A stretch of DNA of 32,985 nucleotides, from the NCBI GenBank assembly GCA_029256785.1, contig JAQSXG010000005.1, positions 1-32,985 of the forward strand, in the 5' to 3' direction. Under the pieces are notes generated by a model. That model was given only the letters and a program-made list of their open reading frames with translations, was not told where the DNA came from and searched no databases. Source of the DNA: Neobacillus sp. Its GTDB lineage: Bacteria; Bacillota; Bacilli; Bacillales; Cytobacillaceae. Shown piece after piece: positions 2,547-26,813 of this stretch (its first letter is position 1; each line of letters starts with the position of its first letter). The position numbers and the translations under genes were made by a program.

Positions 2547-2640
2547 AAGTGTCTCATGGTTCTCGCCCTTATATTATGGGCGATAGCCTGCTTGCCTCGT
2601 TTTGGAAAGGTTTAAAAGCAAAGATCTATAAGAGGATTCA

Positions 2641-2782
2641 TTACTTGCCCTTTGTTGGAGGGCGTAGTCTCGGAGCGAGCAGCGGTAGGCAAGCGAAAGC
2701 GCGGCAGGGGAGAGGGAGAGATACCGATTTCTTTGGCAGCTTTTCGAATGCTAGGATTTAGTGATTCGATAGCTCTTTTCAT
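2641..2782 (-). pseudogene. HTH protein fragment interrupted by a REP-like repeat
   Basis: On the minus strand a frame starting at ATG 2782 reads MKRAIESLNPSIRKAAKEIG followed by IS, the first half of a helix-turn-helix. It closely resembles the C-terminal HTH of the plasmid initiator at 9095-10807 (SIRKAAAEMGLSHSTL). At the point where the recognition helix should follow, the frame runs into the repeat at 2651-2712 and continues as Pro/Leu/Arg-rich sequence to a stop. I read it as a gene broken by insertion of, or recombination at, the repeat. Confidence 0.45.
2651..2712. repeat. REP-like dispersed repeat, copy 1
   Basis: About 62 bases carrying TTTGTTGG, AGTCTCGGAGCGAG, AGCGGTA, AAGCGAAAGCG and GGCAGGGG. 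It matches the element at 13267-13328 in the same order and orientation, with a few substitutions. It is GC-rich compared with its neighbours and contains the small palindrome CTCGGAGCGAG. It forms the end of the broken HTH frame at 2641-2782. Confidence 0.7.
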
Positions 2783-2884
2783 CAGTTCTAGATTTAGGTA
2801 GAGGGTTCACTTATAGAGTTTTCTTTTCCTTTCGAAAATCGTTATACTAACCTTATTAGATTAAAGTGTGTGGAGGTGGAATAT

Positions 2885-3292
2885 GTGATCAGTGAAGAAT
2901 GGAAAGAGGGCATTCAAGAAATACTCGGAGAACGCTTGCAACCCGCATTTTTACTTGTTTTTGGTTCTTATGCGAAAGGAATAGTAAGAGAAGGCAGTGA
3001 TTTGGATTTGGCGTATTATTCGGATATACAGTTAACGAATTATGAACGCTTTTTACTTGCAGGAGATCTTGCAGCCATCTGTAATATCGAAGTGGACCTT
3101 GTTGATATTCGTCAGATTGATACCGTATTTGCAGCTCAAATTTTTTCGACAGGTGAATTGCTCGAATGTGCAGATGAAAACATATTTACAAGAGAGCGTA
3201 TGAAAGCTTTGTCCATGTACGCAACGCTTAATGAGCAACGAGCCGAGGTGTTACGTGCAATCGAGGAAAGAGGAACAATCTATGGCGAATAA
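2885..3292 (+). CDS. mntA: MntA-like nucleotidyltransferase antitoxin (type VII TA)
   Basis: A minimal nucleotidyltransferase of about 135 residues. The signature GSYAKG followed ten residues later by SDLDLAYYSD is the GSX10DXD motif that binds metal and ATP in MNT antitoxins, which add AMP residues to a tyrosine of the HepT toxin. I choose the GTG at 2885 because GGAGGTGG ends five bases before it; a GTG at 2870 in the same frame lies before that RBS. The gene overlaps the start of the hepT remnant (ATG 3282) by 11 bases, the usual operon order here. The antitoxin appears intact, while its toxin partner is not. Confidence 0.85.
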   Translation: MISEEWKEGIQEILGERLQPAFLLVFGSYAKGIVREGSDLDLAYYSDIQLTNYERFLLAGDLAAICNIEVDLVDIRQIDTVFAAQIFSTGELLECADENIFTRERMKALSMYATLNEQRAEVLRAIEERGTIYGE

Positions 3293-3688
3293 TGATGTCC
3301 TTTTAAACAAAGCAGCAACGATTGAACGATGTGTAAAACGTATTCATGAGGAGTCGCAGGGAATCCAGCCAATTTAAAAGATTACACGAAGCAAGACAGT
3401 ATCATTTTAAACATTCAGCGTGCCTGTGGGGCGAGCATTGATCTTGCGATGCATATTGTGAGCGAGAAAAAGCTTGGTTTACCAAAGGCAAGCCGAGATG
3501 CGTTTAAGTTTTTACAAGAAGCGAAGATCATCGATAGTGCTTTAGCGAAAACGTTAATGAATATGGTAGGATTCCGTAACATTGCTGTGCACGATTATCA
3601 AGCGATTAAGTTAGATATATTATAAGCTATCATTGAACAACATCTCGGTGATTTTACAACCTTTTCAACAATCATTTTGCAAAAATAG
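3282..3688 (+). pseudogene. hepT: HepT-like HEPN toxin, inactivated by frameshift and nonsense mutation
   Basis: The reading starts MANNDVLLNKAATIERC with ATG inside the end of mntA, then loses frame near 3354-3356. A one-base deletion there would restore the expected EEYAGNPANLKDYTKQD pattern of HepT. In the shifted frame the protein continues through the HEPN RNase motif RNIAVHDY (R-x4-H-x-Y), which is preserved, and then meets TAA at 3623-3625 where homologs would have Gln (CAA to TAA). Reading on gives AIIEQHLGDFTTF and a final TAG at 3686. Two independent lesions make loss of the toxin likely. In the family the toxin is an RNase blocked by AMPylation by MntA. Confidence 0.82.
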
Positions 3689-8101: not shown

Positions 8102-8219
8102 CTTCTTATCCAGAGTGGTAGAGGGACAGGCCCTGTGAAACCCGGCAACCATCAAGTCAAAATATTGTCTTGAACGGTGCTAATTCCTGCAAAGGTGTTA
8201 ACCTTTGAAAGATGAGAGG
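8102..8219 (+). promoter_or_regulatory. SAM-I (S-box) riboswitch
   Basis: The conserved core is present in order: CTTATCCAGAGTGGTAGAGG, GGCCCTGTGAAACCCGGCAA, GGTGCTAATTCCTGCAAA, and the closing GATGAGAGGA. Helix P1 pairs 8102-8110 with 8211-8219. It is followed within 20 bases by an intrinsic terminator (8238-8267), so binding of S-adenosylmethionine should stop transcription before the MsrA-like gene at 8307. Expression is therefore expected when SAM or methionine is scarce. Confidence 0.95.
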
Positions 8220-15610: not shown

Positions 15611-16540
15611 ATGAAAGATAAACCTGATAAGCCTAAAAACAATGAGCATAGACTCGGACAGCACAAAAAGGGCGAGCATAAACTCAATAAGCCTAAAAAG
15701 GAAGAGTATAAACTTGATAAGCCTAAAAAGGACAAGCATAAACAGCCAGGTAATCAAGAATCTATTCAAACTTCATCACAATTCTTATTCAATCAATATA
15801 ATGTTTCTTATACAGTTAATGTAGTGGGTATTTTTTATAATGGTGAAACTATTGAACAAGCTACTAGTAGATTCCAAAGAGATGTTGAGATTGCTAATAA
15901 AATATGGACAATTAACGGGAGAAGTTGTATTAGGTTTGACATAACAAAAGTTATTGCTCCTGGACTACTAGCAAATCCTGATGGGACCCCACGATTTGCT
16001 GAGTCTATAAATCCTTTAGAGTTACAAGCGAATACAGGTATTATTAATCAAATAATAGAGTTTTATAAAAAGGATATTACAAATCCAAACCATACAATAT
16101 TTGTTGTTTATTTCAAAGGAAATGCTTTTGCTAATGGGAGTGTTGGTACTGGGGGCATTCAGGGGAATAGCATTGAATTTGCAAATGGTCATGTACATGG
16201 ACGAGTTATAATGGCTGATCGGTCAATAAAAACGGCAACGAATGATCCAACAAAGCAGTTTAATACGCTTGCACATGAATTTGGACATGTTTTATTCACT
16301 AGATTAGAAGCCGGACAATTTACAATGAATGACCCTTCACCTACAGCCCCTTATGTTAACGCACCGAATAGACCTTTGGATTGGTCTCCTGCGATTCATA
16401 ATAATGATATAAGGAATACGATGTGGCCTGTCGCTTTTGATGTCACTAATACTTCTATTCTTCCTATAATTGACGAGATACAATGTATACAAGCTAGAAA
16501 AAGTCCATTAGTAATGGTACAAAATCTATTTATGCAATAA
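15611..16540 (+). CDS. Zincin-like metalloprotease with Lys-rich repeat head
   Basis: A protein of 309 residues. Residues 1-47 are a low-complexity head of about three copies of an 11-residue unit (HKLNKPKKEEY, YKLDKPKKDKH) with no hydrophobic signal peptide. Residues 60 to the end form a globular domain containing NTLAHEFGHVLF (HEFGH, 222-226), the HExxH zinc site of zincin proteases. A downstream NTMWPV resembles a Met-turn, and His in SPAIHNN or an acidic residue could be the third ligand. The metzincin HExxHxxGxxH extension is absent. AGAAGGGG precedes the ATG. The family is not recognised. A lysine-rich head could bind nucleic acid, teichoic acid or the spore surface, or arise from slippage. 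Confidence 0.72.
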   Translation: MKDKPDKPKNNEHRLGQHKKGEHKLNKPKKEEYKLDKPKKDKHKQPGNQESIQTSSQFLFNQYNVSYTVNVVGIFYNGETIEQATSRFQRDVEIANKIWTINGRSCIRFDITKVIAPGLLANPDGTPRFAESINPLELQANTGIINQIIEFYKKDITNPNHTIFVVYFKGNAFANGSVGTGGIQGNSIEFANGHVHGRVIMADRSIKTATNDPTKQFNTLAHEFGHVLFTRLEAGQFTMNDPSPTAPYVNAPNRPLDWSPAIHNNDIRNTMWPVAFDVTNTSILPIIDEIQCIQARKSPLVMVQNLFMQ

Positions 16541-17480: not shown

Positions 17481-17608
17481 AAATGTAAGCGCTTTATCCA
17501 GCCGCGATAACGGATTATGGAACAAAAGATGAAGTCGCTCTGTGCTTCATCTTCTTTCCTTTTATGCAGATCTATGCGTAGAGTAAGGGATAAGAGGTTT
17601 TTGTTATT
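17481..17608. other. Spacer after DUF3891 with weak hairpin
   Basis: This contains GATGAAG ... CTTCATC (17530-17555 region), a short stem followed by TTCTTTCCTTTT that may terminate the DUF3891 transcript. I see no gene. Confidence 0.45.
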
Positions 17609-17662
17609 GATGTTTATGTATACATCGATGTCGATATCGTCGTTTATATCTATGTTTATATT
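17609..17662. repeat. Degenerate palindromic hexamer tract 1 (9 units)
   Basis: The units in order are GATGTT TATGTA TACATC, GATGTC GATATC GTCGTT, TATATC TATGTT TATATT. Nearly every unit fits KAYRTH (A at position 2, T at position 5), a consensus that is its own reverse complement. Its right flank (CTCTATACTTATTAAAT) resembles the right flank of tract 3. Confidence 0.8.
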
Positions 17663-17669
17663 TCACTAA

Positions 17670-17768
17670 TCTGCTTCTCTATACTTATTAAATGATGCAG
17701 AAGAGGAACTAACCGATGATGAATTTCTACATGATATTCTTCAGCTTAAGGATCTTAAAAAAATATAA
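17670..17768 (+). pseudogene. Possible C-terminal gene fragment
   Basis: A 32-codon open frame without a start reads LLNDAEEELTDDEFLHDILQ then LKDLKKI and a TAA, immediately followed by a good terminator. The acidic, amphipathic composition looks like a real protein end, but no family is recognised and chance is not excluded. Confidence 0.25.
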
Positions 17769-17770
17769 GG

Positions 17771-17810
17771 AAAGAGCCAGAATTCAAAAATTCTGGCTCT
17801 TTCTCTTTTT
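17771..17810 (+). terminator. Rho-independent terminator
   Basis: The stem AAAGAGCCAGAATT/AATTCTGGCTCTTT is followed by CTCTTTTT. It directly abuts the right end of the TnpB element, so the element inserted next to it. Confidence 0.85.
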
Positions 17811-18003
17811 GTCAACAACCCCCCACTTAATGACCTTACGGTCTGTTTGAAGTGGGGGCTTGCGTCTGTCAGAGTTTGACAGTGCTTCTACCCTCATAGA
17901 GAGCAACTACGCTTGTTCCTACCCAGTAGTACGAACGAGCAATGCTCTCCTACCTTAGTGTGGTGGAACATAAGGACGGTTGACTTCGCCCCTACCGCAA
18001 GAG
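17811..18003 (-). ncRNA. Probable omega (right-end) guide RNA of TnpB
   Basis: The 190 bases between the tnpB stop and the right end are non-coding and highly structured. They contain GAGAGCATTGCTCGTTCGTA ... AACAAGCG.AGTTGCTCTC, GTCAAACTCTGAC, and the terminal CCCCCACTT/AAGTGGGGG hairpin. In TnpB systems this region is the scaffold of the guide RNA, with the guide taken from the host DNA just beyond the right end. The guide here would come from the bases below 17811 on the minus strand. The call rests on position and structure. Confidence 0.6.
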
Positions 18004-19119
18004 TTATACTTCTGTGGTAACTACACCAATATGTTCAGTTCCTTTACGGTGTAGATTCATAGCACCAATACGGTCATCATTTGATTGGTATTGGCAATTT
18101 TTGCACTTAAAAGTGTGTAGCTTTTTATTACGATTTGCTTTTTCAATATGTCCACATTTGGGGCAAGTTTGAGAAGTATATTTTGGGTCTACCACAATCA
18201 CCTTCTGTCCGTTCAATTCAGCTTTATACTCAAGCATTTGACGGAATTGGTAGAAAGCCCAAGACACAGAAACATAGCGGTTTTTTACTCGTACTTTTTC
18301 AGTGGCAGTGCGAACACCTGTCAAATCTTCCAAAACAAACATAGTACCTCTAGGGTATTTATCAACGAGTGCCTTTGTAATTTGATGGTTTACATCAGTT
18401 ACATAACCGTTTTCTCTTGAACCAATTTGTTTTAGTTTCTTACGAGCAGATGGTGTTTGTCGCATTTGGAGTTGTTTGCGAGTAGCTTTAAACTTACCAC
18501 GCTTATGCTTGACAATGTTGCCATTATAGAAAGTGGTTTTACCTTGACTATCATAAGTAGTAGCAAGAAAGTTAATTCCTAAGTCAATACCGACAATACT
18601 ATTTACATCTGCTAGGCCTAATACTTGGTACTCTTTTGTCATCGGGATATGCAAGAACCACTTCTTGTATTTATGCACTAATTTAGCAGTGCCAAATTTC
18701 CAAGTACCATTGAAGTATTTCTTCATAGCCTTACGCTCATAATTTAGCTTTAGACGACCATCCAGTGTATTTACGCTAAATTGATTTTTAGTTAGTGAGT
18801 AATCACGATTCCATACAAGGTCATATTCAGGAAGTTTAAATTCAATCAAAGACCATTCATGTCCATTCGATTTAGCTGACTTGTAACGAGCGATTACGGT
18901 TTTCATCACAGATTGAGCCATTTGACTTTTTAGTCCAAATTGATTTCGCAAATCAGAATAATACAAGTTATTAAGACTTGTTTGGTTTAGGTTTTTTGTT
19001 TCAAATATGTGTTTCGATAACCAATTACAAGCTTTGCGATAAGCACTAGTCGTTATCCTTAAACTTTGAGCTTGATTATCGGAAACATAGATTTGTATTT
19101 TTGCAGTAATGGTAGACAT
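18004..19119 (-). CDS. tnpB: TnpB RNA-guided DNA endonuclease
   Basis: A protein of 371 residues, the usual TnpB size. The RuvC-like residues are all present: Asp179 in GIDLGINFLATT, Glu264 in FVLEDLTGVR, and Asp349 in NDDRIGAMNL. The zinc finger is complete (C319-P-K-C322 and C339-K-N-C342). The protein should be catalytically competent, cutting DNA at sites that match its guide RNA and so keeping the element in the population. I choose the ATG at 19119 (MSTITAKIQIYV) over an ATG at 19143, which lies within the GGAGGTGG region that acts as RBS. No tnpA accompanies it. The right-end RNA is at 17811-18003. Confidence 0.93.
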   Translation of the reverse strand: MSTITAKIQIYVSDNQAQSLRITTSAYRKACNWLSKHIFETKNLNQTSLNNLYYSDLRNQFGLKSQMAQSVMKTVIARYKSAKSNGHEWSLIEFKLPEYDLVWNRDYSLTKNQFSVNTLDGRLKLNYERKAMKKYFNGTWKFGTAKLVHKYKKWFLHIPMTKEYQVLGLADVNSIVGIDLGINFLATTYDSQGKTTFYNGNIVKHKRGKFKATRKQLQMRQTPSARKKLKQIGSRENGYVTDVNHQITKALVDKYPRGTMFVLEDLTGVRTATEKVRVKNRYVSVSWAFYQFRQMLEYKAELNGQKVIVVDPKYTSQTCPKCGHIEKANRNKKLHTFKCKNCQYQSNDDRIGAMNLHRKGTEHIGVVTTEV

Positions 19120-19336
19120 TATTTTCACACCACCTCCCACCAACCGAATTATACCAATTTTTTAGTGGAAGTAAATAACTTAAACAGAGGAAGGAGGAGG
19201 CAAGGCGGAAGTTTCAGATACTTGATATGGCACAAAACCTTACGATTTTCACCGTACCATACCGTATCTGACGGCAATTCCTCCCCCACTTATCCGTTGG
19301 GCTAACGCCCTTCACACGATTGAAGTAGGGGTATCC

Positions 19337-19692
19337 TTGCCGATTTTAGATGAAAATTTCCTTTCCAAAACAGTTCTCTCTCCTCAGTACATACTATCTA
19401 AGTTAAAGGGACCTTTTCTATAGTAAGATAATGATTGATGGGCTGATCATTTTTTACTGTTCAGTCTATTGTTTTCAATAAGGTACCTTATTGATTTTCA
19501 AGGCTTCCAAGCATGGAGAATACACTTATCACAATTGTTCAAATGCTATGTTTACTCCCCTAGTGGCCTCTCATCCTTTGAATTGTTTCCGTTTTTGGCA
19601 GGGAGGGGTATGATAAAGATATACAAAGTCGTGCTTCATTCATCCTTTTTGGTGGAGATCTATTTGAGGTTCAGTTCTGTGGAGGTGATATC
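19337..19692. other. Upstream region of the polymerase gene
   Basis: About 350 bases without a supported gene. It presumably holds the uvrX promoter. I looked for the Bacillus LexA box (GAACnnnnGTTC) and did not see a convincing one. Confidence 0.45.
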
Positions 19693-21021
19693 TTGACTCA
19701 ACAATTTCATCCCCGAAATGGCCGGGTAGTAGCACACGTCGATTGTAACTCTTATTTTGCGGCGGTTGAGATCGCGAATGATTCTAGTCTTGAAGGTAAA
19801 CCTGTTGTCGTTGCAGGAAATCTAAAGAGAAATGGAATCATTATAGCAGCTAGCTATAAAGCAAGAGAGTATGGGATATACACGACTCAGTTATTGTCAC
19901 AGGCAAAGAAGCTTTGTACGGATTTGGTCGTAAAAGCTCCTAACTTTGATTTATACAGAGAAACTTCTGCTAAAATCTTTGATTTTCTTTCTACCATAAC
20001 AGAAGAAATTGAGATAGCCAGTATTGATGAATCTTATCTAGATTTAACTGAACTAGCCAAACGAGGAATGAATCCTATAGAAATTGCGAAAAAGGGCCAA
20101 CTGGATATCCTTGAAATGTTTGGAATACCGACTAGCTGGGGAATCGGTCCAAATAAGGTTTTGGCAAAACACGCTAGCGATTGGAAGAAGCCCAATGGTT
20201 TGACGATTATCAGGCGTCGGGATGTACCACATATGCTTTGGCCAAAGCCCGTTAGTGAACTTCATGGCTGTGGGGAAAAAACGGCTGAAAAACTTAGTAG
20301 TATTGGCGTAAAAACCATTGAAGATTTAGCGGAAATAGAAGAGGGGATAGTTCGGAGGCTCCTCGGAAAAAACGGAGTTATGCTTAAAAATTGGGCAAAT
20401 GGGATTGACAATCGTCCAGTCGATAAGGAAAAGGCCCTCTCGATTACTACGGTTGGAAATTCAACGACCCTCCAAGTTAATACAGCTGAAGAACGTGTTC
20501 TTTTGGAAACCTTTAAAAGTTTGGCTCAATCAGTGAGCCTAAGAATGAAGGCTAAAAAAGTAGTCACGTACACGGTTCAAATCACCATTCGTTACTCTGA
20601 CTTTAAAACTATTACAAGGAGTAGGACATTGATTAATCCTGTAGTGGAAGCTCGAGAATTATTTCAATGCGCTATGCAATTGTTCCATAAACATTGGAGT
20701 GGTGATAGCGTTAGATTATTGGGGATTTCAGCTCAAAACGTTGTAGAAGAAAGGGAAGCAGTCAAGCAGCTTGATTTGTTTGATTTTGAAGCCGACGCGA
20801 AAGAAGTTGAAAAGAAGGAGCCACTTCTTCAGGTTGTGGGACAGTTGAAGATGAAATTTGGAACGTCTATTATTCAAACCGGCGCTGATTTAGTTCAAAA
20901 ACAAGCAAAAACAGCTGGTGATACATTCAAATGGAGGTATGGCCAGCAAATTGAAAAAAACACGATAAGTAAAGATTTTAACCTGAAAAGTCGGATTCCA
21001 AGTGAACTGCCCCCCAATTGA
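19693..21021 (+). CDS. uvrX: Y-family DNA polymerase, UvrX / Pol IV-like
   Basis: A translesion polymerase of 442 residues. HVDCNSYFAAVEIAND gives the first catalytic Asp, and IASIDESYLDLT the Asp-Glu pair. A helix-hairpin-helix region follows (ELHGCGEKTAEKLSSIGVKT), then the little-finger domain. The sequence QLDLFDF near residue 360 is a textbook beta-clamp binding motif. The start is TTG at 19693 with GGAGGTGAT 5 bases upstream. UvrX-type polymerases are typical of Bacillus prophages and plasmids and promote SOS mutagenesis. The usual YolD-like partner is not found beside it. The 3' end lies in a strong hairpin that includes the stop codon. Confidence 0.92.
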   Translation: MTQQFHPRNGRVVAHVDCNSYFAAVEIANDSSLEGKPVVVAGNLKRNGIIIAASYKAREYGIYTTQLLSQAKKLCTDLVVKAPNFDLYRETSAKIFDFLSTITEEIEIASIDESYLDLTELAKRGMNPIEIAKKGQLDILEMFGIPTSWGIGPNKVLAKHASDWKKPNGLTIIRRRDVPHMLWPKPVSELHGCGEKTAEKLSSIGVKTIEDLAEIEEGIVRRLLGKNGVMLKNWANGIDNRPVDKEKALSITTVGNSTTLQVNTAEERVLLETFKSLAQSVSLRMKAKKVVTYTVQITIRYSDFKTITRSRTLINPVVEARELFQCAMQLFHKHWSGDSVRLLGISAQNVVEEREAVKQLDLFDFEADAKEVEKKEPLLQVVGQLKMKFGTSIIQTGADLVQKQAKTAGDTFKWRYGQQIEKNTISKDFNLKSRIPSELPPN

Positions 21022-21051
21022 TAGTTGTGTCTAACAATTGGGGGACGGTTC
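21004..21051. terminator. Hairpin over the uvrX stop codon
   Basis: CCCCCAATTG (21011-21020) pairs perfectly with CAATTGGGGG (21035-21044), and the flanking GAAC/GTTC extends the stem. There is no T-run, so it may act as an mRNA 3' stabiliser or a repeat rather than a classic terminator. Confidence 0.55.
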
Positions 21052-21133
21052 ATTATAAGGGATTCGACTTCTTTAATAGTAAATCTAATTGCCTTCCCCT
21101 CCGGTTATAAAATCACTTTTATAAAACTACATT

Positions 21134-21205
21134 GATGTTCATATCGATATCGATGTCTACATGGATGTTCATATCGATATTTCCATCGATATTGATACCG
21201 GTATT
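21134..21205. repeat. Degenerate palindromic hexamer tract 2 (12 units)
   Basis: The units include GATGTT CATATC GATATC, GATGTC TACATG GATGTT, CATATC GATATT TCCATC and GATATT GATACC GGTATT. Its left flank (CCCCTCCGGTTATAAAATC, then TTTTATAAAACT) matches the left flank of tract 4 (CCCCTCCGTTTATAGAAAA, then TTTATTAAACT), so a longer element is shared. Confidence 0.8.
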
Positions 21206-21343
21206 TAAGTAATCTTATGGTACAGCAACGATTACAGGCACCACTATTCTAAAGGTTTTTTAATCCCTTTAATGAGATTAAATCCTCTTTAAGGAATGTT
21301 AAACCTGCTATTGTGAGTGCGGGTTCGGGTCTCATCAATTGAA

Positions 21344-21892
21344 TCATTGCCCTCTGTACATTAAATGAATTTGATTTGCTATATAATCTGAACTAAAATG
21401 AAGCCCCTTTTTTATCCACCACATGATGATGCCTACCACTGAGGCTGTTTTAATTTCGACCGCAACATAATCCGCAGGTAAATCCTTCTTAGTATTCTGC
21501 CTTCTTGTTTCAACTAATTGCTTTAATAATAAAAACAATTGCTCCTCAAATTGATTCATTTTAAATAAAGTAAGTAAATAATTTCGATGGATATATAAAT
21601 AATCGAGTACTTGTGTTAGCTTTTGTTTTTCTGGTAAATCTTTTGCGTGTATTAAATCAACCATTTTATCAGAAAGCCCCTGTAAAATCTCATTAGTGAT
21701 TTGCGCTAGTAAATCTTCAATATCTTGATAATGTAAGTAAAATGTTGTTCGATTTAATCCTGCTTTAGCTGCGACTTTCTGAACCGTTAAATTAGACATA
21801 GTGGGGTCCTCTGAAAGGAGCGAAAAGACGGCATTTTTGAACATTTCTCTTGAACGAAGTGTACGAGGATCTTCTTTTTTAGGTGTAGACAT
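21344..21892 (-). CDS. TetR-family transcriptional repressor
   Basis: A protein of 182 residues. The N-terminal TetR HTH is clear (SNLTVQKVAAKAGLNRTTFY then LHYQDIEDLL, about residues 33-63), followed by a helical ligand domain with a TetR_C-type end (VGIIMWWIKKGLHFSSDYIA). AAAGGAGGG lies 5 bases before the ATG. It is divergent from the MFS exporter gene at 22066, with a palindrome in the exporter promoter, so it most likely represses the exporter until a drug or toxic metabolite binds. Confidence 0.9.
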   Translation of the reverse strand: MSTPKKEDPRTLRSREMFKNAVFSLLSEDPTMSNLTVQKVAAKAGLNRTTFYLHYQDIEDLLAQITNEILQGLSDKMVDLIHAKDLPEKQKLTQVLDYLYIHRNYLLTLFKMNQFEEQLFLLLKQLVETRRQNTKKDLPADYVAVEIKTASVVGIIMWWIKKGLHFSSDYIANQIHLMYRGQ

Positions 21893-22010
21893 TTCAACCC
21901 TCCTTTATAGATTTTTCTTTGACTTTCACAACACGATATATTTTCTATGTCGATTAGTGAACATTTTCAAAAAAACTGTTCATGGTCAAATAATATACAT
22001 TTTGTTACTA

Positions 22011-22038
22011 TTGATTTTATCGACACAGTGTTGATAAT
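22011..22038 (+). promoter_or_regulatory. Exporter promoter with embedded TetR operator
   Basis: TTGATT (22011-22016) and GATAAT (22033-22038) are spaced by 16 bases. The spacer is filled by a palindrome with arms TTATCGACAC and GTGTTGATAA around one central base (one mismatch). A repressor bound there would block RNA polymerase. A second, looser repeat GAACA ... TGTTC lies at 21959-21981, nearer to tetR, and may serve autoregulation. Confidence 0.65.
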
Positions 22039-22065
22039 GCAAGTCTAGAATAGAGGTGGTTATGA

Positions 22066-23526
22066 ATGACGAACGAATTAACAGATAGCAATAAAAAAAT
22101 CTTATTAATTGTCCTGATTGCTGGCTGCTTTTTATCAACATTAAATCAGACGTTATTAAATGTTGCATTGAGTAATTTAATGGAGGTATTTGATGTTACG
22201 CCCGCAACTGTACAATGGTTATCAACAGGCTTTATGCTCGTAAACGGTGTTTTAGTGCCAATCACGGCGTTTTTAATGAAGCGTTTTACAACAAGGCAGC
22301 TGTTTATTAGCTCGATGTTCTTTTTGTTCATCGGTTCTGTACTTTGTGCCTGTGCCATGAATTTTGGCGTTCTGTTAACAGGAAGAATGATTCAAGCCAT
22401 TGGGGCAGGAATTATTATGCCACTGATGATGACCGTTATTTTATATTTATATCCTAGTGAAAAGCGTGGAAGTATTATGGGTACGATCGGCTTTGCCATC
22501 ATTTTTGCACCGGCCATCGCTCCAACTTTATCCGGCTTTATCATTGAATATGTATCATGGAGATGGCTGTTTATTGGATTAGTTCCATTTGTATTAATCG
22601 TTATTATTCTTACGTTTAAATATTTAATGAATGTTGCAGACACAATAAAAGCAAAATTAGATATCGTTAGCGTCATTATATCAACGATTGGATTTGGTTC
22701 TATTTTATTTGGATTTAGTAGTGCAGGAAGCAAGGGATGGGATCATCCGGTTGTTATTACAACCATTGTCATTGGAATAATCGTGACAACTCTATTCTGT
22801 TTACGTCAAATAAAGTCTAACGATCCATTATTAAATTTATCTGTATTTAAGTATAAAGTTTTTACTCTTACATCCGTTATTAACGTACTCATTACAATCA
22901 TTATGTATGCGGATCTAATTCTTTTACCCATTTACTTGCAAAATGGAAGAGGTGTTACCGCATTTGAAGCAGGTCTGCTTTTATTACCAGGGGCTGTGAT
23001 TAATGCTTTCTTATCACCTATCACAGGTAAAATGTATGATAAATACGGGGCGAAACCAATCTTTATTACAGGTTTAGTATTTATCTTTATTTCGATGTGG
23101 GCTGTAATTGATTTGACCGAATCCACGACTTATATGTATTTAATGGTTCGTACCATTCTTTTACGAATTGGATTAAGCTTCATTTCGATGCCTTTAAATG
23201 CAGCCGGATTGAATGCTTTACCAAGAGAATTGGGTTCACATGGTTCAGCAGTAAATAATACTATTCGCCAATTAGCAGGTGCTATTGGAACGGCAGTTGT
23301 CATCACGGTTTATACCATTCAATCCACTTCACATGCTTCTGAGTTATCTATGGAGAATGGCAATATTTCAGCTATGCAACTAGCTAAATTAGCTTCTATC
23401 TTTGGCTCAAGCGATGCCTATGTGTTTATGTTAGTTTTATCTTTTGTGGCATTCATTTTTGTATGTATGATGCCTAAAAAGGCCGCAATTCCAAAAAGTG
23501 AATCACAAAAGGAAAAGTATAGTTGA
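22066..23526 (+). CDS. MFS multidrug exporter, DHA2 (EmrB/QacA) family
   Basis: An integral membrane protein of 486 residues with about 14 hydrophobic segments. Family signatures are LNQTLLNVALSNLMEVFDVT near the N-terminus (helix 1), the motif-A-like MKRFTTRQLF, the motif-C-like GRMIQAIGAGIIMPLMMTVI, and a late SHGSAVNNTIRQLAGAIGTA. These proton antiporters export lipophilic drugs, dyes or metabolites. AGAGGTGG precedes the ATG. It is divergent from and probably repressed by the TetR protein. A 22-bp-stem terminator overlaps its stop codon. Confidence 0.92.
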   Translation: MTNELTDSNKKILLIVLIAGCFLSTLNQTLLNVALSNLMEVFDVTPATVQWLSTGFMLVNGVLVPITAFLMKRFTTRQLFISSMFFLFIGSVLCACAMNFGVLLTGRMIQAIGAGIIMPLMMTVILYLYPSEKRGSIMGTIGFAIIFAPAIAPTLSGFIIEYVSWRWLFIGLVPFVLIVIILTFKYLMNVADTIKAKLDIVSVIISTIGFGSILFGFSSAGSKGWDHPVVITTIVIGIIVTTLFCLRQIKSNDPLLNLSVFKYKVFTLTSVINVLITIIMYADLILLPIYLQNGRGVTAFEAGLLLLPGAVINAFLSPITGKMYDKYGAKPIFITGLVFIFISMWAVIDLTESTTYMYLMVRTILLRIGLSFISMPLNAAGLNALPRELGSHGSAVNNTIRQLAGAIGTAVVITVYTIQSTSHASELSMENGNISAMQLAKLASIFGSSDAYVFMLVLSFVAFIFVCMMPKKAAIPKSESQKEKYS

Positions 23527-23552
23527 GATATCTCAGCTATGCTTTTCCTTTT
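23507..23552. terminator. Long perfect-stem terminator over the exporter stop
   Basis: The left arm 23507-23528 and right arm 23531-23552 (TCTCAGCTATGCTTTTCCTTTT split as TCTCAGCTATGC and TTTTCCTTTT) pair over 22 bp with two G-U pairs and a 2-base centre. The sequence has an A-rich left and T-rich right side, so it may work for both the exporter and the convergent SMR-like gene. Confidence 0.8.
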
Positions 23553-23634
23553 GTTGAAAAAGAATAAAGCCTTTATCTTTCTTAACCGAACCTTGTACGG
23601 ATTCCTGATATGCGTATGTTTAAAATGAAACATA

Positions 23635-23976
23635 TTATTTATTTAAAAGGACGGCACCTATAGCAATCAGGAAAATACCAATAATGGAATAGACTGAAAT
23701 TTTCTGTTGTAAAACTAAAATAGATAAAATCGTAACAAGAATGGCATTGACCCCAGTTTGAATACCGCCAAGCATGACCGTATTTCTAAATATTTTGCTG
23801 CCTTGAATGAAACCCCAGGCTAATACAATGTTTCCTATAAAAGAAAGAGGAAGAAAATATAGATTAAATTTGATGCTATCTTTTAAAGTTGGTTGAAAAA
23901 AATAGGCAGATAAAATGGGTAACAAGGAAAAAATACTAGCACCAATGATAATGGATCCAATTATAAGAAATTTCAA
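23635..23976 (-). CDS. Small four-helix membrane protein, SMR/EamA-like
   Basis: A protein of 113 residues with four hydrophobic segments: about 3-25, 36-60, 67-92 and 94-111, the layout of small multidrug resistance (SMR) or half-EamA transporters. It lacks the conserved early Glu (Glu14 of EmrE) in helix 1, which is uncharged here, so it may be a partner subunit or a diverged or truncated EamA half. The start is TTG 23976, with AAGAGGTG 5 bases upstream. The tnpB-less IS605-like element begins about 30 bases upstream, so it may have lost its original promoter or N-terminal half to that insertion. Confidence 0.65.
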   Translation of the reverse strand: MKFLIIGSIIIGASIFSLLPILSAYFFQPTLKDSIKFNLYFLPLSFIGNIVLAWGFIQGSKIFRNTVMLGGIQTGVNAILVTILSILVLQQKISVYSIIGIFLIAIGAVLLNK

Positions 23977-24006
23977 CTGAACACCTCTTTTAATGGTAAT
24001 ACTTTA

Positions 24007-24424
24007 TCTTTTCCCGACAGAAGACTCCCATCCTCAAGGAATATGAAGGGCAATAGCCCAATGAGTAGGTGGGAGATGAATGTCGGTTGGCGGTAGCCAA
24101 AACACTTGTTTGTATGGTAAAATATTCCTGTAAGTTGTTCTTTGAAAACTGAAGATAGGAGGTTGTGACAGGAAAAACGTCTGTCACGTAAAATCTTCAA
24201 CGTTCTAATCGCCTCCACACGCACCGAAGTAGCGAAAACCAAGCAGAGTAGGGCGTGTGGCGAGTTCAACGTACAAAATAGCAACACCGCGCAGGAGGCT
24301 AATAAGCCATCTGTACTGCTAACTGTCGGTGCGACAGGGTTAGCCTGCTAAATAACTAGTGGATACACTGGTGTTCGCAGGAATCCCCCACTTCAAGCTT
24401 TAGCTAAGTGGTGGGTAGTTCAAC
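24007..24424 (+). mobile_element. IS200/IS605-like element without tnpB (deletion derivative)
   Basis: The left part has the IS605-type left-end hairpin (ACTCCCATCCTCA ... GGGCAATAGCCC ... TGAGTAGGTGGGAG) and then GTCGGTTGGCGGTAGCCAAA and TATGGTAAAATATTC, the usual promoter region before tnpB. The right part ends GTTCGCAGGAATCCCCCACT ... AAGTGGTGGGTAGTTCAAC, a right end of the same kind as 8684-8733. The roughly 1.1 kb coding region is missing, leaving about 420 bases. It resembles a MITE-like or palindrome-associated non-autonomous element. Confidence 0.72.
24150..24424 (+). ncRNA. Candidate orphan omega (guide) RNA
   Basis: The region is non-coding and strongly structured: GGAGG ... CCTCC (24158-24217), CACACGC ... 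GCGTGTGG (24216-24261), CTAACTGTCGG/CAGGGTTAG (24319-24346), and the terminal CCCCCACTT/AAGTGGTGGG hairpin. The 3' portion (GTTCGCAGGAATC then the hairpin) has the look of the TnpB guide-RNA scaffold end, and the bases after 24424 (CTAAATAGTATCG...) would be the guide. Start and extent are estimates. Confidence 0.5.
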
Positions 24425-24561
24425 CTAAATAGTATCGTACATTCTTTTTCCATCTATTCAGTTCTTCTTTAATAAAGATACCTCCATTATCCACAATATG
24501 GAACGATTTTGCATAAAAATAAACACTTATACACTGTTTCGCTGATTTCTTTTACTATGTA

Positions 24562-24600
24562 GGTTACAAGCCAACATTTTTAAAATGTTGGCTTGTAACC
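24562..24600. repeat. Perfect 39-bp palindrome near recombinase
   Basis: The arms GGTTACAAGCCAACATTTT (24562-24580) and AAAATGTTGGCTTGTAACC (24582-24600) are perfect complements around a single T. There is no T-run on either side, so a terminator is unlikely. It lies 51 bases beyond the 3' end of the tyrosine recombinase gene and could be its crossover or binding site, or a cruciform element. Confidence 0.7.
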
Positions 24601-24651
24601 CTGGCTCTTGTAGAATATAGAAGTTGATTGGTTTTAGATGTAAAGGCTCAA

Positions 24652-25569
24652 TTAAAATCGCGGTAGAGAATCAACCGCATCCGCTAAATCATCATACGAA
24701 TCTTTTAAATATTTACTTGTCGTCGCAATATTACTGTGGCCGGCCAGTCTTCTTACTTTTTCAATGTCATTGTTGGTTGCTTTTAACATCCATTTACAAA
24801 AAGTGTGTCTAAACATATGTGGAGTTAACTTTTTCCTTGGTAAGCTGTAGCTTTCAATCATTGTTTGAATTCCACGAATCGTGAACTTTGGAGAGCGCTG
24901 GCTGTAAAAGACATATGGTGATTCCATGACATGAGCTTTTTGCTTGGCCATTTCGGCACGAAAGATGAGCCAGTCCTGAATTTCAGCTAGTAATGTATTA
25001 GAAATAGGAAGAGTTCGGATTTTCCTGCCTTTCCCTACTATTCTAAGACGTTTCAACTCTAGGTCCAGGTCGGTTAGTTTTAAATTAGATAGTTCTTCGA
25101 CTCGTAATCCGGCATACGTAAGCAGGTAAATGATTGCTCGATCACGGCGATATTTTTCCTCGGGATTGACTCCTCGACTTTTGACGGTTTTCTTTCTTAA
25201 CTTTTCTAGCAATCTCTCAAATTCATCTTCTGTAAGCCACATAATTTTTTCATTTTCTTCATCGGCATTTTTCAAATCCTGAATATCCTGCATCGGATTA
25301 TGCTTCAGTTTTTCGTGTCGGATTGCCCAGGAGTAGAAACCACGCAGTGAATTGAGGCGCCTGTTAATTGTGGTAATGGCCAAAGGTTTGACATCGGTTG
25401 GATTAACCATGTCACTGATCCATTTACGAATGTCAGCAGCTGTTACATAATCTTCCGGTTGGATATGTAAATCGGTGAAAAAACAGTTCAAATCATTCGT
25501 ATAAGAAATAATCGTATTTTCTGCCATTCCCTTTTCTTGAAGATACGAAATGTACGCTGAAAACATCAT
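24652..25569 (-). CDS. Tyrosine recombinase (XerC/D-like integrase)
   Basis: A protein of about 305 residues with an N-terminal SAM-like DNA-binding domain (FSAYISYLQEKGMAENTI ... LNSLRGFYSWAIRHEK) and a C-terminal catalytic domain. The catalytic residues are visible: Arg in YAGLRVEELSNL, HMFRHTF (H-x-x-R), HSNIATTSKYL with the His and the nucleophilic Tyr. I prefer ATG 25569, 7 bases from AAAGGAC, over GTG 25575, which is too close. Such enzymes resolve plasmid dimers or integrate elements. It is monocistronic and near the 39-bp palindrome. Confidence 0.9.
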   Translation of the reverse strand: MMFSAYISYLQEKGMAENTIISYTNDLNCFFTDLHIQPEDYVTAADIRKWISDMVNPTDVKPLAITTINRRLNSLRGFYSWAIRHEKLKHNPMQDIQDLKNADEENEKIMWLTEDEFERLLEKLRKKTVKSRGVNPEEKYRRDRAIIYLLTYAGLRVEELSNLKLTDLDLELKRLRIVGKGRKIRTLPISNTLLAEIQDWLIFRAEMAKQKAHVMESPYVFYSQRSPKFTIRGIQTMIESYSLPRKKLTPHMFRHTFCKWMLKATNNDIEKVRRLAGHSNIATTSKYLKDSYDDLADAVDSLPRF

Positions 25570-25779
25570 TTTCACGTCCTTTACTTATATGACGAGTTTA
25601 ATAACCCTCATTTTTGAGAAAATAATGCTAAAAAAATCCACATTATATGATGAGTATAGCATAAGTGAGGGGATTATAAACGTGTATAAAGTATGTTATA
25701 TGCTGAGTTAAAAATTAAAAGTAAAGATTTGAAAAGTGAATATAGGAATATATTAAGTGTAGTTGGATTTATCAAACTG

Positions 25780-25822
25780 AAAGCCTTTCATCTAATCATA
25801 ATTAGATGAAAGGCTTTTTTTA
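25780..25822. terminator. Strong hairpin terminator
   Basis: The perfect 16-bp stem AAGCCTTTCATCTAAT/ATTAGATGAAAGGCTT with an ATCA-like loop of 4 bases is followed by TTTTTTTATAG on the plus strand. It lies just after the 3' end of the PhnB-like gene, where the minus strand carries only a weak T-run. Confidence 0.85.
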
Positions 25823-25829
25823 TAGCAAT

Positions 25830-26258
25830 TTATTGTTGACCTTCCGTGAAAATTTGAAAGTTTATACCGAACTTGTCTGTTATATTACCATAAGCTGGGC
25901 TAAAAAAAGTTTCTTGTAAAGGCATGTTTACTTGACCGCCTTGCTGTAATGCCTCGTACATTTTTGTTGCTTTTTCTGCATCATTCGTTGAAATACAGAT
26001 CGTCACTTGGCTTCCACTCTGATGTGGTTGACCAGGAAACGTATCAGAAAACATAAGCTCTGTTTCACCAACCTTTAACGTCGCGTGTGATATACGGTCC
26101 TTTGCCTCAGCTGGTAAAGGGTATTCTGGATTTTCCGGCATTTCCCCGAAAGATTGAATAAAGAGCACTTGAGCATCTAATGCTTTTTCGTAAAATTCGA
26201 TAGCTTCCTTTGCATTTCCATTCATCACTAAGTAGGGAATTAAGCGTAATGTCATCAT
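25830..26258 (-). CDS. PhnB-like VOC (glyoxalase-fold) protein
   Basis: A protein of 142 residues. The N-terminal LRLIPYLVMNGNAKEAIEFY, ALDAQVLFIQSFGEMP, RISHATLKVGETELMFSD and the C-terminal FFSPAYGNITDKFGINFQIF are typical of the PhnB/DUF1338-like branch of the vicinal oxygen chelate superfamily. Most members have no proven reaction; related proteins include metalloenzymes and antibiotic-binding proteins. AGGAG lies 8 bases before the first of two ATGs. It is monocistronic, and its promoter region holds GAACAAATGTTC, a short palindrome near 26363-26374 that may be an operator. Confidence 0.88.
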   Translation of the reverse strand: MMTLRLIPYLVMNGNAKEAIEFYEKALDAQVLFIQSFGEMPENPEYPLPAEAKDRISHATLKVGETELMFSDTFPGQPHQSGSQVTICISTNDAEKATKMYEALQQGGQVNMPLQETFFSPAYGNITDKFGINFQIFTEGQQ

Positions 26259-26459
26259 AATCAGCTCCTCGGTTCTAACTATTTTTAACTAGTTTGTCGG
26301 CCATTTCAATTGGGTAATAATAGTCATTCAACTATTATTACCCACATCTAGATTATAAGATAACGAACAAATGTTCGCAAGTTAAATTTTAAATAAAATC
26401 CTGCTTTCTTCAGTGAATACTGTGGTGTCCAGTTGTACATGAAGTGTCGTATCATTAAT

Positions 26460-26507
26460 TATGTCGATGTCGATATTGATGTCGACGTTTATATCTATGT
26501 TTACCTT
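26460..26507. repeat. Degenerate palindromic hexamer tract 3 (8 units)
   Basis: The units are TATGTC GATGTC GATATT, GATGTC GACGTT TATATC, TATGTT TACCTT. The final three units and the right flank (CTCTATAATTGATTAAG) match the end of tract 1 and its flank. Confidence 0.8.
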
Positions 26508-26667
26508 CTGTTATTTTTCGTCTCTATAATTGATTAAGTTATCCTGTTTCAATAGAGTTTTTTACTTTGGAAAGATGAATGGGATAAGATGAGTGAACGG
26601 AATATAAAATAGTAAATTTCATTCACTAGCCCCTCCGTTTATAGAAAAATTTTTATTAAACTGTGTG

Positions 26668-26733
26668 GATGTTTATGTAGGTATCGATGTCTACGTTTAT
26701 ATCGATGTTTCTATCGAGGTAAACGTAGACTTC
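26668..26733. repeat. Degenerate palindromic hexamer tract 4 (11 units)
   Basis: The units are GATGTT TATGTA GGTATC, GATGTC TACGTT TATATC, GATGTT TCTATC GAGGTA, AACGTA GACTTC. It lies only 160 bases from tract 3. Its left flank matches that of tract 2. Confidence 0.78.
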
Positions 26734-26813
26734 TATTTTTATTCTTTAACCAATTTATTATTTTGGTTTGCCTAGCTTATTAGATTGCCCTTTTTATTAG
26801 TTCAATTGAAATA

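Follow-up and report, generated by a model that had tools for sequence, protein, structure and literature searches.

The closest characterised case with which the DNA described here can be compared, by analogy, is the delta/omega partition system of plasmid pSM19035, in which omega binds six sites of 7–10 contiguous 7-bp repeats, four contiguous repeats being needed for full stimulation of ParA (PMC9499535). The DNA in question, called the window below, is a stretch of 32,985 nucleotides that makes up an entire contig (JAQSXG010000005.1, here C125) of a draft Neobacillus genome (GCA_029256785.1); it carries four tracts of in-phase hexamers fitting KAYRTH (IUPAC code), which we read, with a probability of about 0.74, as dispersed parS-like (centromere-like) arrays for the ribbon-helix-helix (RHH) ParB of a plasmid, moved by its ParA. 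Related tracts lie on plasmids of Peribacillus asahii, and the system resembles that of pSM19035 in its small ParA, its predicted RHH partner, its several separate short-repeat arrays and the placing of arrays over par promoters. The repeat unit is 6 bp with an AYRT core in the P. asahii type and the 7-bp WATCACW in pSM19035, with similar numbers of copies per site, and the arrays number 9–10 over tens of kilobases in the P. asahii plasmids as against six. Unlike pSM19035, the P. asahii plasmids have an array inside the parB coding sequence, and their ParB has a long linker before a C-terminal RHH-like region.

Partial likenesses are offered by other partition systems. PrgP/PrgO and RepB/RepC are grouped as partition pairs of enterococcal RepA_N plasmids; PrgP is the top NCBIfam model for the ParA of the P. 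asahii KF4 plasmid, although the match (E 2.3e-22, 79.7 bits) is far below the family cut-off of 400. The repeats of these pairs are the 8-bp TAGTARRR. In the ParF/ParG-parH system of TP228, a ParA-like ATPase works with an RHH protein that binds a centromere made up of short, degenerate boxes in arrays, but parH consists of tetramer boxes with spacers and is found in other hosts, whereas the hexamers here are contiguous. In Bacillus subtilis, the chromosomal parS inside spo0J provides an example of a centromere site within the gene of its own binder, as is proposed for the parB tract described below, although it is a single 16-bp site for a ParB of the helix-turn-helix type, unlike a coding array of RHH sites. 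ParF/ParG is classed as type Ib in PMC9178275, and short-repeat arrays near the par operon, as in type Ib ParABS, are seen in P. asahii and its relatives. The P. asahii arrays are most likely a scattered, 6-bp-repeat version of this known kind of DNA-segregation site. Among the matches listed from the open-licence literature, no title or abstract opening on RHH coding or hexamer arrays, PrgP/PrgO, RepB/RepC or P. asahii plasmids describes these arrays.

The + strand of the window was scanned with a log-odds matrix for the KAYRTH hexamer. The four tracts picked out by the initial annotation are all recovered, slightly longer, as runs of 8–14 hexamers with scores of 45.1–58.7 (Table 1); the next-best place on this strand scores 13.5 and the top of 20 second-order Markov shuffles 17.1, so the shuffles remain far below the tracts. 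Base counts for 302 hexamers, taken from 24 copies of the tracts in the window's genome and on two P. asahii plasmids, show that the A at position 2 (246/302) and the T at position 5 (284/302), first described as fixed, are strongly preferred without being absolute, while position 3 is a pyrimidine in 296 and position 4 a purine in 292 of the 302. Positions 3 and 4 vary independently in the 24 copies (TA 103, TG 83, CA 56, CG 44); the site is thus A-Y-R-T with a pyrimidine-purine step and no strict palindrome. The hexamer had also been called its own reverse complement, which does not hold, as the complement of KAYRTH is DAYRTM and only the core AYRT is self-complementary; the + strand scores above the other strand in four of four window tracts. 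The common flanks of tracts 1 and 3 and of tracts 2 and 4 are real but short (~30 bp on the right and ~50 bp on the left, respectively); an own-genome match links the left flank and tract 2 (21075–21189) to query positions 229–338 (E 1.3e-14). What remains of the longer dispersed element first proposed is a tract-spacer-tract unit, with starts 208–214 bp apart, found twice on the KF4 plasmid (27877/28091 and 53345/53559) and in a single copy in the window (26460/26668); in the one pair that was compared, the spacers are related. Window positions 26595–26720 match KF4 L022:13100–14250 (query positions 394–524) with 70% identity (E 1.0e-8).

The region of tract 1 matches the P. asahii plasmids KF4 unnamed1 (78 kb) and CK1 unnamed2 (108 kb) with gene order largely kept. 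The window and two other contigs of the same draft genome, C235 and C343, are syntenic with these plasmids; C235 and C343 also bear tracts and carry genes of the P. asahii-type plasmid. A further contig, C573, holds a DUF1778 gene and then the start of parA, the first 100 amino acids of which are identical to KF4 ParA, and ends there. Searched with DNA of the tracts and of the par region, the draft genome gave no other convincing place. Tracts 3 and 4, used as a DNA query over 61 genomes of the genus (own included, at most 11 candidates scored per genome), gave weak matches in 6 of the 60 others (E 4.5e-5 to 0.006); two of those six were read, one being a plain GATGTC repeat and the other lacking a tract. 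KF4 ParB gave only three matches in the 61 genomes (E ~0.07), in a search with no positive control. The arrays most likely belong to a large replicon of the P. asahii type, a plasmid or a chromid.

On the P. asahii plasmids, nine tracts are found in KF4 and ten in CK1, one of the ten being a 5-hexamer stretch directly past parB. They form two clusters, one in the window-like region and the other around the DUF1778-parA-parB operon, where they are densest, and they score higher on the same strand as the window tracts in 9/9 (KF4) and 9/10 (CK1) cases, the 5-hexamer stretch being a tie. The operon comprises the gene for DUF1778, a small TacA1-like protein, located 3 bp before parA on both KF4 and C573; parA itself, whose KF4 product matches Pfam AAA_31 (E 4.3e-32), which places a ParA-type Walker ATPase on the array-bearing replicon, the gene lying outside the window; and a 134-codon gene, named parB here, whose reading frame overlaps the end of parA on both plasmids. 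In KF4, two tracts lie 166–249 and 386–463 bp downstream of parB, a hairpin directly 3' of parB is likewise made of hexamers, and one tract runs in frame inside parB, where it encodes an (Asn/Asp)-(Val/Ile) linker. KF4 unnamed2, a plasmid with a different parA-parB pair, has zero tracts scoring 15 or more in 76 kb.

Nine tract sites were aligned between KF4 and CK1, the window's genome being added for six, and substitutions and indels were counted, in related sequences that are not independent of one another. The overall rate of substitution is about equal in tracts (141/1103) and flanks (585/4340). The kinds of change differ: at positions 3 and 4 of the tracts, 58 of 61 changes are transitions, as against 349 of 585 changes in the flanks (58:3 vs 349:236, Fisher p 2e-9), so that Y and R are preserved. 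Changes are fewest at position 5 (11/184), followed by positions 1 and 2 (18/184 each), positions 3, 4 and 6 having 28 to 33, and indels come in multiples of 6 in 6 of 7 cases in tracts and 8 of 47 in flanks. Judged from these alignments, the tracts evolve in the manner predicted of binding sites. The tract inside parB bears on the same point. When parB is recoded synonymously with plasmid codon usage, its tract score is reached once in 2000 recodings for either plasmid, and the Val and Ile codons end in A or C in 9/9 cases in the linker as against 3/9 in the rest of parB; by these measures, the hexamer motif inside parB is kept at the level of DNA.

Arrays of the same kind lie beside parA in more distant replicons. 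Relatives of KF4 ParA occur in 71 plasmid records, and a second gene overlaps the match in 52 of the 60 matches listed. The loci looked at comprise 24 par loci of plasmids, 17 loci from bacterial genomes and 2 viral contigs, an array being scored by AYRT hexamers within 300 bp upstream of parA and compared with 200 dinucleotide shuffles. Where the predicted ParB ribbon reads R.T.[WY][IV][ER]N, an array lies upstream of parA in six of six plasmids, each at no more than 1/200 shuffles (Paenibacillus urinalis, Paenibacillus peoriae, Paenibacillus brasilensis and Paenibacillus JNUCC32, Brevibacillus laterosporus Wq-1 and Terribacillus pT1), the ribbon classes having been set after arrays and sequences had been seen; KF4 and CK1 fell under "other" by the script's pattern and stand outside the six, and L068 was omitted from the ribbon survey. 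A typical upstream array reads TACGTA TACGTA AACATA AACGTA, with a TATAAT-like box directly after it in several plasmids, and four of six in the R.T.[WY] group also have an array within 600 bp past parB (0/200 shuffles). Upstream arrays are absent from all five plasmids with the ribbon RKRVSFD, KF4 unnamed2 included (lowest 15/200 shuffles), and occur at no more than 2/200 shuffles in 9 of 14 members of a sister group with the ribbon VFTSFYM. The shuffle test likewise gave no upstream array in three phage-plasmid types, Alicyclobacillus acidoterrestris, Natranaerobius and Brevibacillus pAZOBL1. As a forward test, the tblastn matches of KF4 ParB in Paenibacillus brasilensis, Terribacillus and Alicyclobacillus SO9 were taken, and all three have an array upstream of parA, the result for Alicyclobacillus SO9 having been obtained without its ParB sequence; the fourth match, Brevibacillus Wq-1, which had already been looked at, has one too, so that all four matches outside P. 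asahii carry an upstream array at no more than 1/200 shuffles. As a separate observation, AAGAAGAAAA-like stretches precede parA in KF4 unnamed2 (L094:27623–29257) and in some relatives from Geobacillus, Niallia, B. badius and B. methanolicus; they are a candidate second type of array, in place of AYRT hexamers.

Taken with the constraint on the tracts, this comparison favours the proposal of the initial annotation that the tracts are an array of sites for a dimeric protein, one per half turn, and the likely binder, as predicted from sequence, is the RHH ParB of the plasmid partition system. ParB is a likelier binder than DUF1778, since the array occurs in relatives in which no DUF1778 gene is annotated ahead of parA. 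RHH ParB dimers would occupy the contiguous 6-bp A-Y-R-T sites, 8–14 per array, side by side and probably cooperatively, and the ParB-coated arrays would form a partition complex moved by ParA for segregation of the plasmid. Since arrays cover the parA promoter region in relatives, the par operon is probably autoregulated as well. In the P. asahii plasmids, the array would have multiplied to 9–10 copies across tens of kilobases in one orientation, one of which codes for the ParB linker. Two of three VFTSFYM-type relatives score above the cut-off of the Pfam family RHH_1 (24.8 and 21.8 vs 20.5), the third and three others scanned falling short of it, and an AlphaFold2 model of relative L067 predicts two C-terminal helices, as expected of an RHH monomer.

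Several points weigh against this assignment. The same AlphaFold2 model has no strand, a low-confidence linker and a mean predicted local distance difference test (pLDDT) of 60.8; KF4 ParB itself has zero Pfam or NCBIfam family matches, and its RHH identity comes from an alignment with relatives (A3) and a weak PDB profile match (2kel, E 0.0073). The ribbon of KF4 and CK1, RKLTVWVEN, fits R.T.[WY] by eye only, one residue out of place, and upstream of their operon the array score is reached by 46/200 and 32/200 shuffles, respectively, their arrays lying inside and after parB instead. No parB was found in the draft genome (G000), and the binder could instead be DUF1778, the operon's second RHH-like protein. 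The ribbon rule has exceptions in both directions: CMF4, B. marinus and P. psychrosaccharolyticus have other ribbons yet upstream arrays at 0/200, and Pseudalkalibacillus, with the near ribbon RQTYLVRN, has none upstream (53/200) and a borderline one after parB (1/200). As to constraint, the orthologue comparison covers three related plasmids only, CpG-type mutation could account for some of the excess of transitions at Y-R steps, and permutation of codons within parB reaches the tract score in 59/2000 and 54/2000 cases, a weaker result than that of recoding.

The alternative that the tracts are transcription-factor operators, serving gene regulation in place of partition and bound by the RHH-like DUF1778 or by some other regulator of the plasmid, draws on the position of DUF1778 3 bp before parA and of the relatives' arrays over the parA promoter region. 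It is nonetheless unlikely: Paenibacillus urinalis and Paenibacillus brasilensis have the array with no DUF1778 gene annotated before parA (in an incomplete gene table), and at least two of the nine KF4 tracts (L021:22547 and L022:12303) lie between convergent genes, away from promoters. That the tracts instead derive from the parB linker, as decayed or duplicated copies of its coding repeat, (Asp/Asn)-(Val/Ile), and keep a pattern left by old selection on protein is quite improbable. One tract does code within parB and another in a 49-codon KF4 frame, in all three copies tract 5 falls within an open frame of the minus strand and tract 3 within a short TTG frame, and constraint at positions 3, 4 and 6 fits codons too; yet the other tracts lack a start and frame common to all orthologues, codon choice in parB tracks the DNA motif, and in Paenibacillus brasilensis and Terribacillus arrays stand before parA and after parB with none in parB (93/100 and 89/100 shuffles). 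The absence of a start stated in the initial annotation is right for tract 1 of the window and not as a general rule, given that first-start frames vary among copies and one P. asahii tract is coding; the decayed coding repeat, named there as a refuting case, may hold for the origin of the copies but fails to account for the arrays upstream of parA in relatives. Beside this stands the observation that the 49-codon frame (KF4 L022:13500–13700) begins like DUF1778 (MEKTTSI vs MEKKTANI, with a similar leader) and then runs into the hexamer tract, its CK1 counterpart being shorter and without that start.

A functionless simple-sequence repeat, spread over the plasmid by slippage and gene conversion, would explain the in-phase indels, which are typical of slippage, and the equal substitution rates of tracts and flanks; a (GATGTC)n/(GATGTT)n tandem of more than 180 bp, partly masked, does occur in another genome of the genus (L081:1410–1650). 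The units of the tracts are diverged, not identical, however, their substitutions preserve base class, orthologous places are kept in three plasmids, and arrays adjoin parA in relatives, which makes this account very unlikely. Least likely is a role in replication control, as iterons bound by Rep or as sites of another kind. Short repeats in contiguous runs on plasmid DNA would suit such a role, and the rep gene of Paenibacillus urinalis ends ~1.5 kb before parA, but the annotated rep of CK1 (2626–3570) lies ~19 kb from the nearest tract (22939), and the arrays accompany the par operon. The structured RNA also suggested in the initial annotation was rejected as an explanation of the main function. 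Compared with dinucleotide shuffles, some tracts fold well (z down to -7.6), but for most of the 24 copies, on both strands, shuffles of hexamer order give similar energies, with a few exceptions (to z -3.9), so that the folding energy is mostly explained by hexamer content; positions 3 and 4, moreover, vary independently.

A further proposal, held tentatively and with somewhat less than an even chance of being right, is that of a self-encoding centromere, in which a disordered ParB linker would be coded by the centromere repeats of its plasmid, so that its amino acids would follow the DNA-level site and the site word and RHH ribbon would evolve together. In the P. asahii plasmids, the linker words are KAYRTH hexamers (KF4 parB, L022:13808–14212). 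In the sister group, the palindrome ACATATGT occurs 50 times around par against 5.4 expected, over 16 loci, and ACATATG stands in frame, always as ACA TAT G, in 13 of 15 parB genes whose linkers are otherwise variable; the 15 are those of plasmids L051 and L052 and of 13 loci (among L059 and L061–L072, with L067 and L068 near-identical), and the codon count left out, of 17 loci, L060 (which ends in parA), L073 (no parB found), L074 (a copy of L071) and L075 (remote). In the phage-plasmid group, GATAAC and AATCAT are common to the parB linker and the array directly before parA, and in KF4 unnamed2 AAAGAAGAAAAAAATAAAA, by eye, is common to the linker and the stretch before parA. The sharing of 8-, 10- and 12-mers between parB genes and their flanks is a blunt test. 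With 8-mers, single replicons are mostly weak. With 10-mers, the sister group has 458 against 323 expected (0/1000 recodings, 0/1000 permutations), the P. asahii type, as two non-independent plasmids, a modest 36 against 18.7 (0/1000 and 6/1000), and the phage-plasmid group is weak (12/1000 and 66/1000); with 12-mers, the sister group alone stood out. This suggests that ParB linkers may be coded by centromere repeats in several lineages. A single palindromic 8-mer was sought in the phage-plasmid group and none was convincing; phages searched with the DNA of the par region gave zero matches.

For most Bacillales plasmids, to our knowledge, no centromere has been mapped. If the arrays are indeed parS-like, contiguous runs of 6-bp AYRT sites ahead of parA, downstream of parB or within its linker would provide a sequence-only rule for finding the centromere in a large plasmid family, and would suggest predicting incompatibility from the ParB ribbon; a plasmid with two rRNA operons and 24 tRNA genes would bear many scattered centromere arrays, and the P. 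asahii plasmids would provide a case of a binding site shaping its probable binding protein. If self-encoding is true, the parB gene would by itself be enough to read off the centromere specific to a replicon.

Table 1. Hexamer tracts of the window, their associated segments and their orthologues on two P. asahii plasmids.
Feature	Position	Strand	Description	KF4 orthologue	CK1 orthologue
Tract 1	17603-17662	+	10 KAYRTH hexamers, score 51.2; putative parS-like array, type A, ~120 bp past DUF3891 gene	L021:19134-19205	L023:31698-31757 (minus strand)
Left flank of tract 2, common to tract 4	21075-21127	+	best-kept part CCCCTCCG.TTATA.AA...TTTTAT.AAACT		
Tract 2	21128-21211	+	14 hexamers, score 58.7, flanked by the convergent DNA polymerase IV and TetR genes; putative parS-like array, type B	L021:22547-22630	L023:28010-28081
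Tract 3	26460-26507	+	8 hexamers, score 45.1; putative parS-like array, type A	L021:27877-27936	L023:23189-23230
Spacer of tracts 3 and 4	26508-26667	+	right part (26595 on) like spacer beside parB on KF4 plasmid		
Tract 4	26668-26739	+	12 hexamers, last few degenerate, score 49.3; putative parS-like array, type B	L021:28091-28186	L023:22939-23034

Other features of these replicons are recorded here in their own right. On the KF4 unnamed1 plasmid, L022:21107–33358 holds 24 tRNA genes and two 16S-23S-5S rRNA operons, both complete, and a similar annotation gap is present in KF4 unnamed2 at 54397–62499. In the window, a TnpB/Cas12f-like IS605 OrfB gene with a Pfam TNB domain (18004–19143) separates tract 1 from the DNA polymerase IV gene, at a position held in KF4 by an M23 peptidase gene. 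An S-adenosylmethionine (SAM) riboswitch (Rfam RF00162, 90 bits) is found at 8103–8218, and the open reading frame downstream of it is syntenic with the KF4 peptide-methionine sulfoxide reductase gene. At 15627–15743, a 30-bp tandem repeat codes for the Lys/Pro-rich N-terminus of a 309-amino-acid protein that has no Pfam match.

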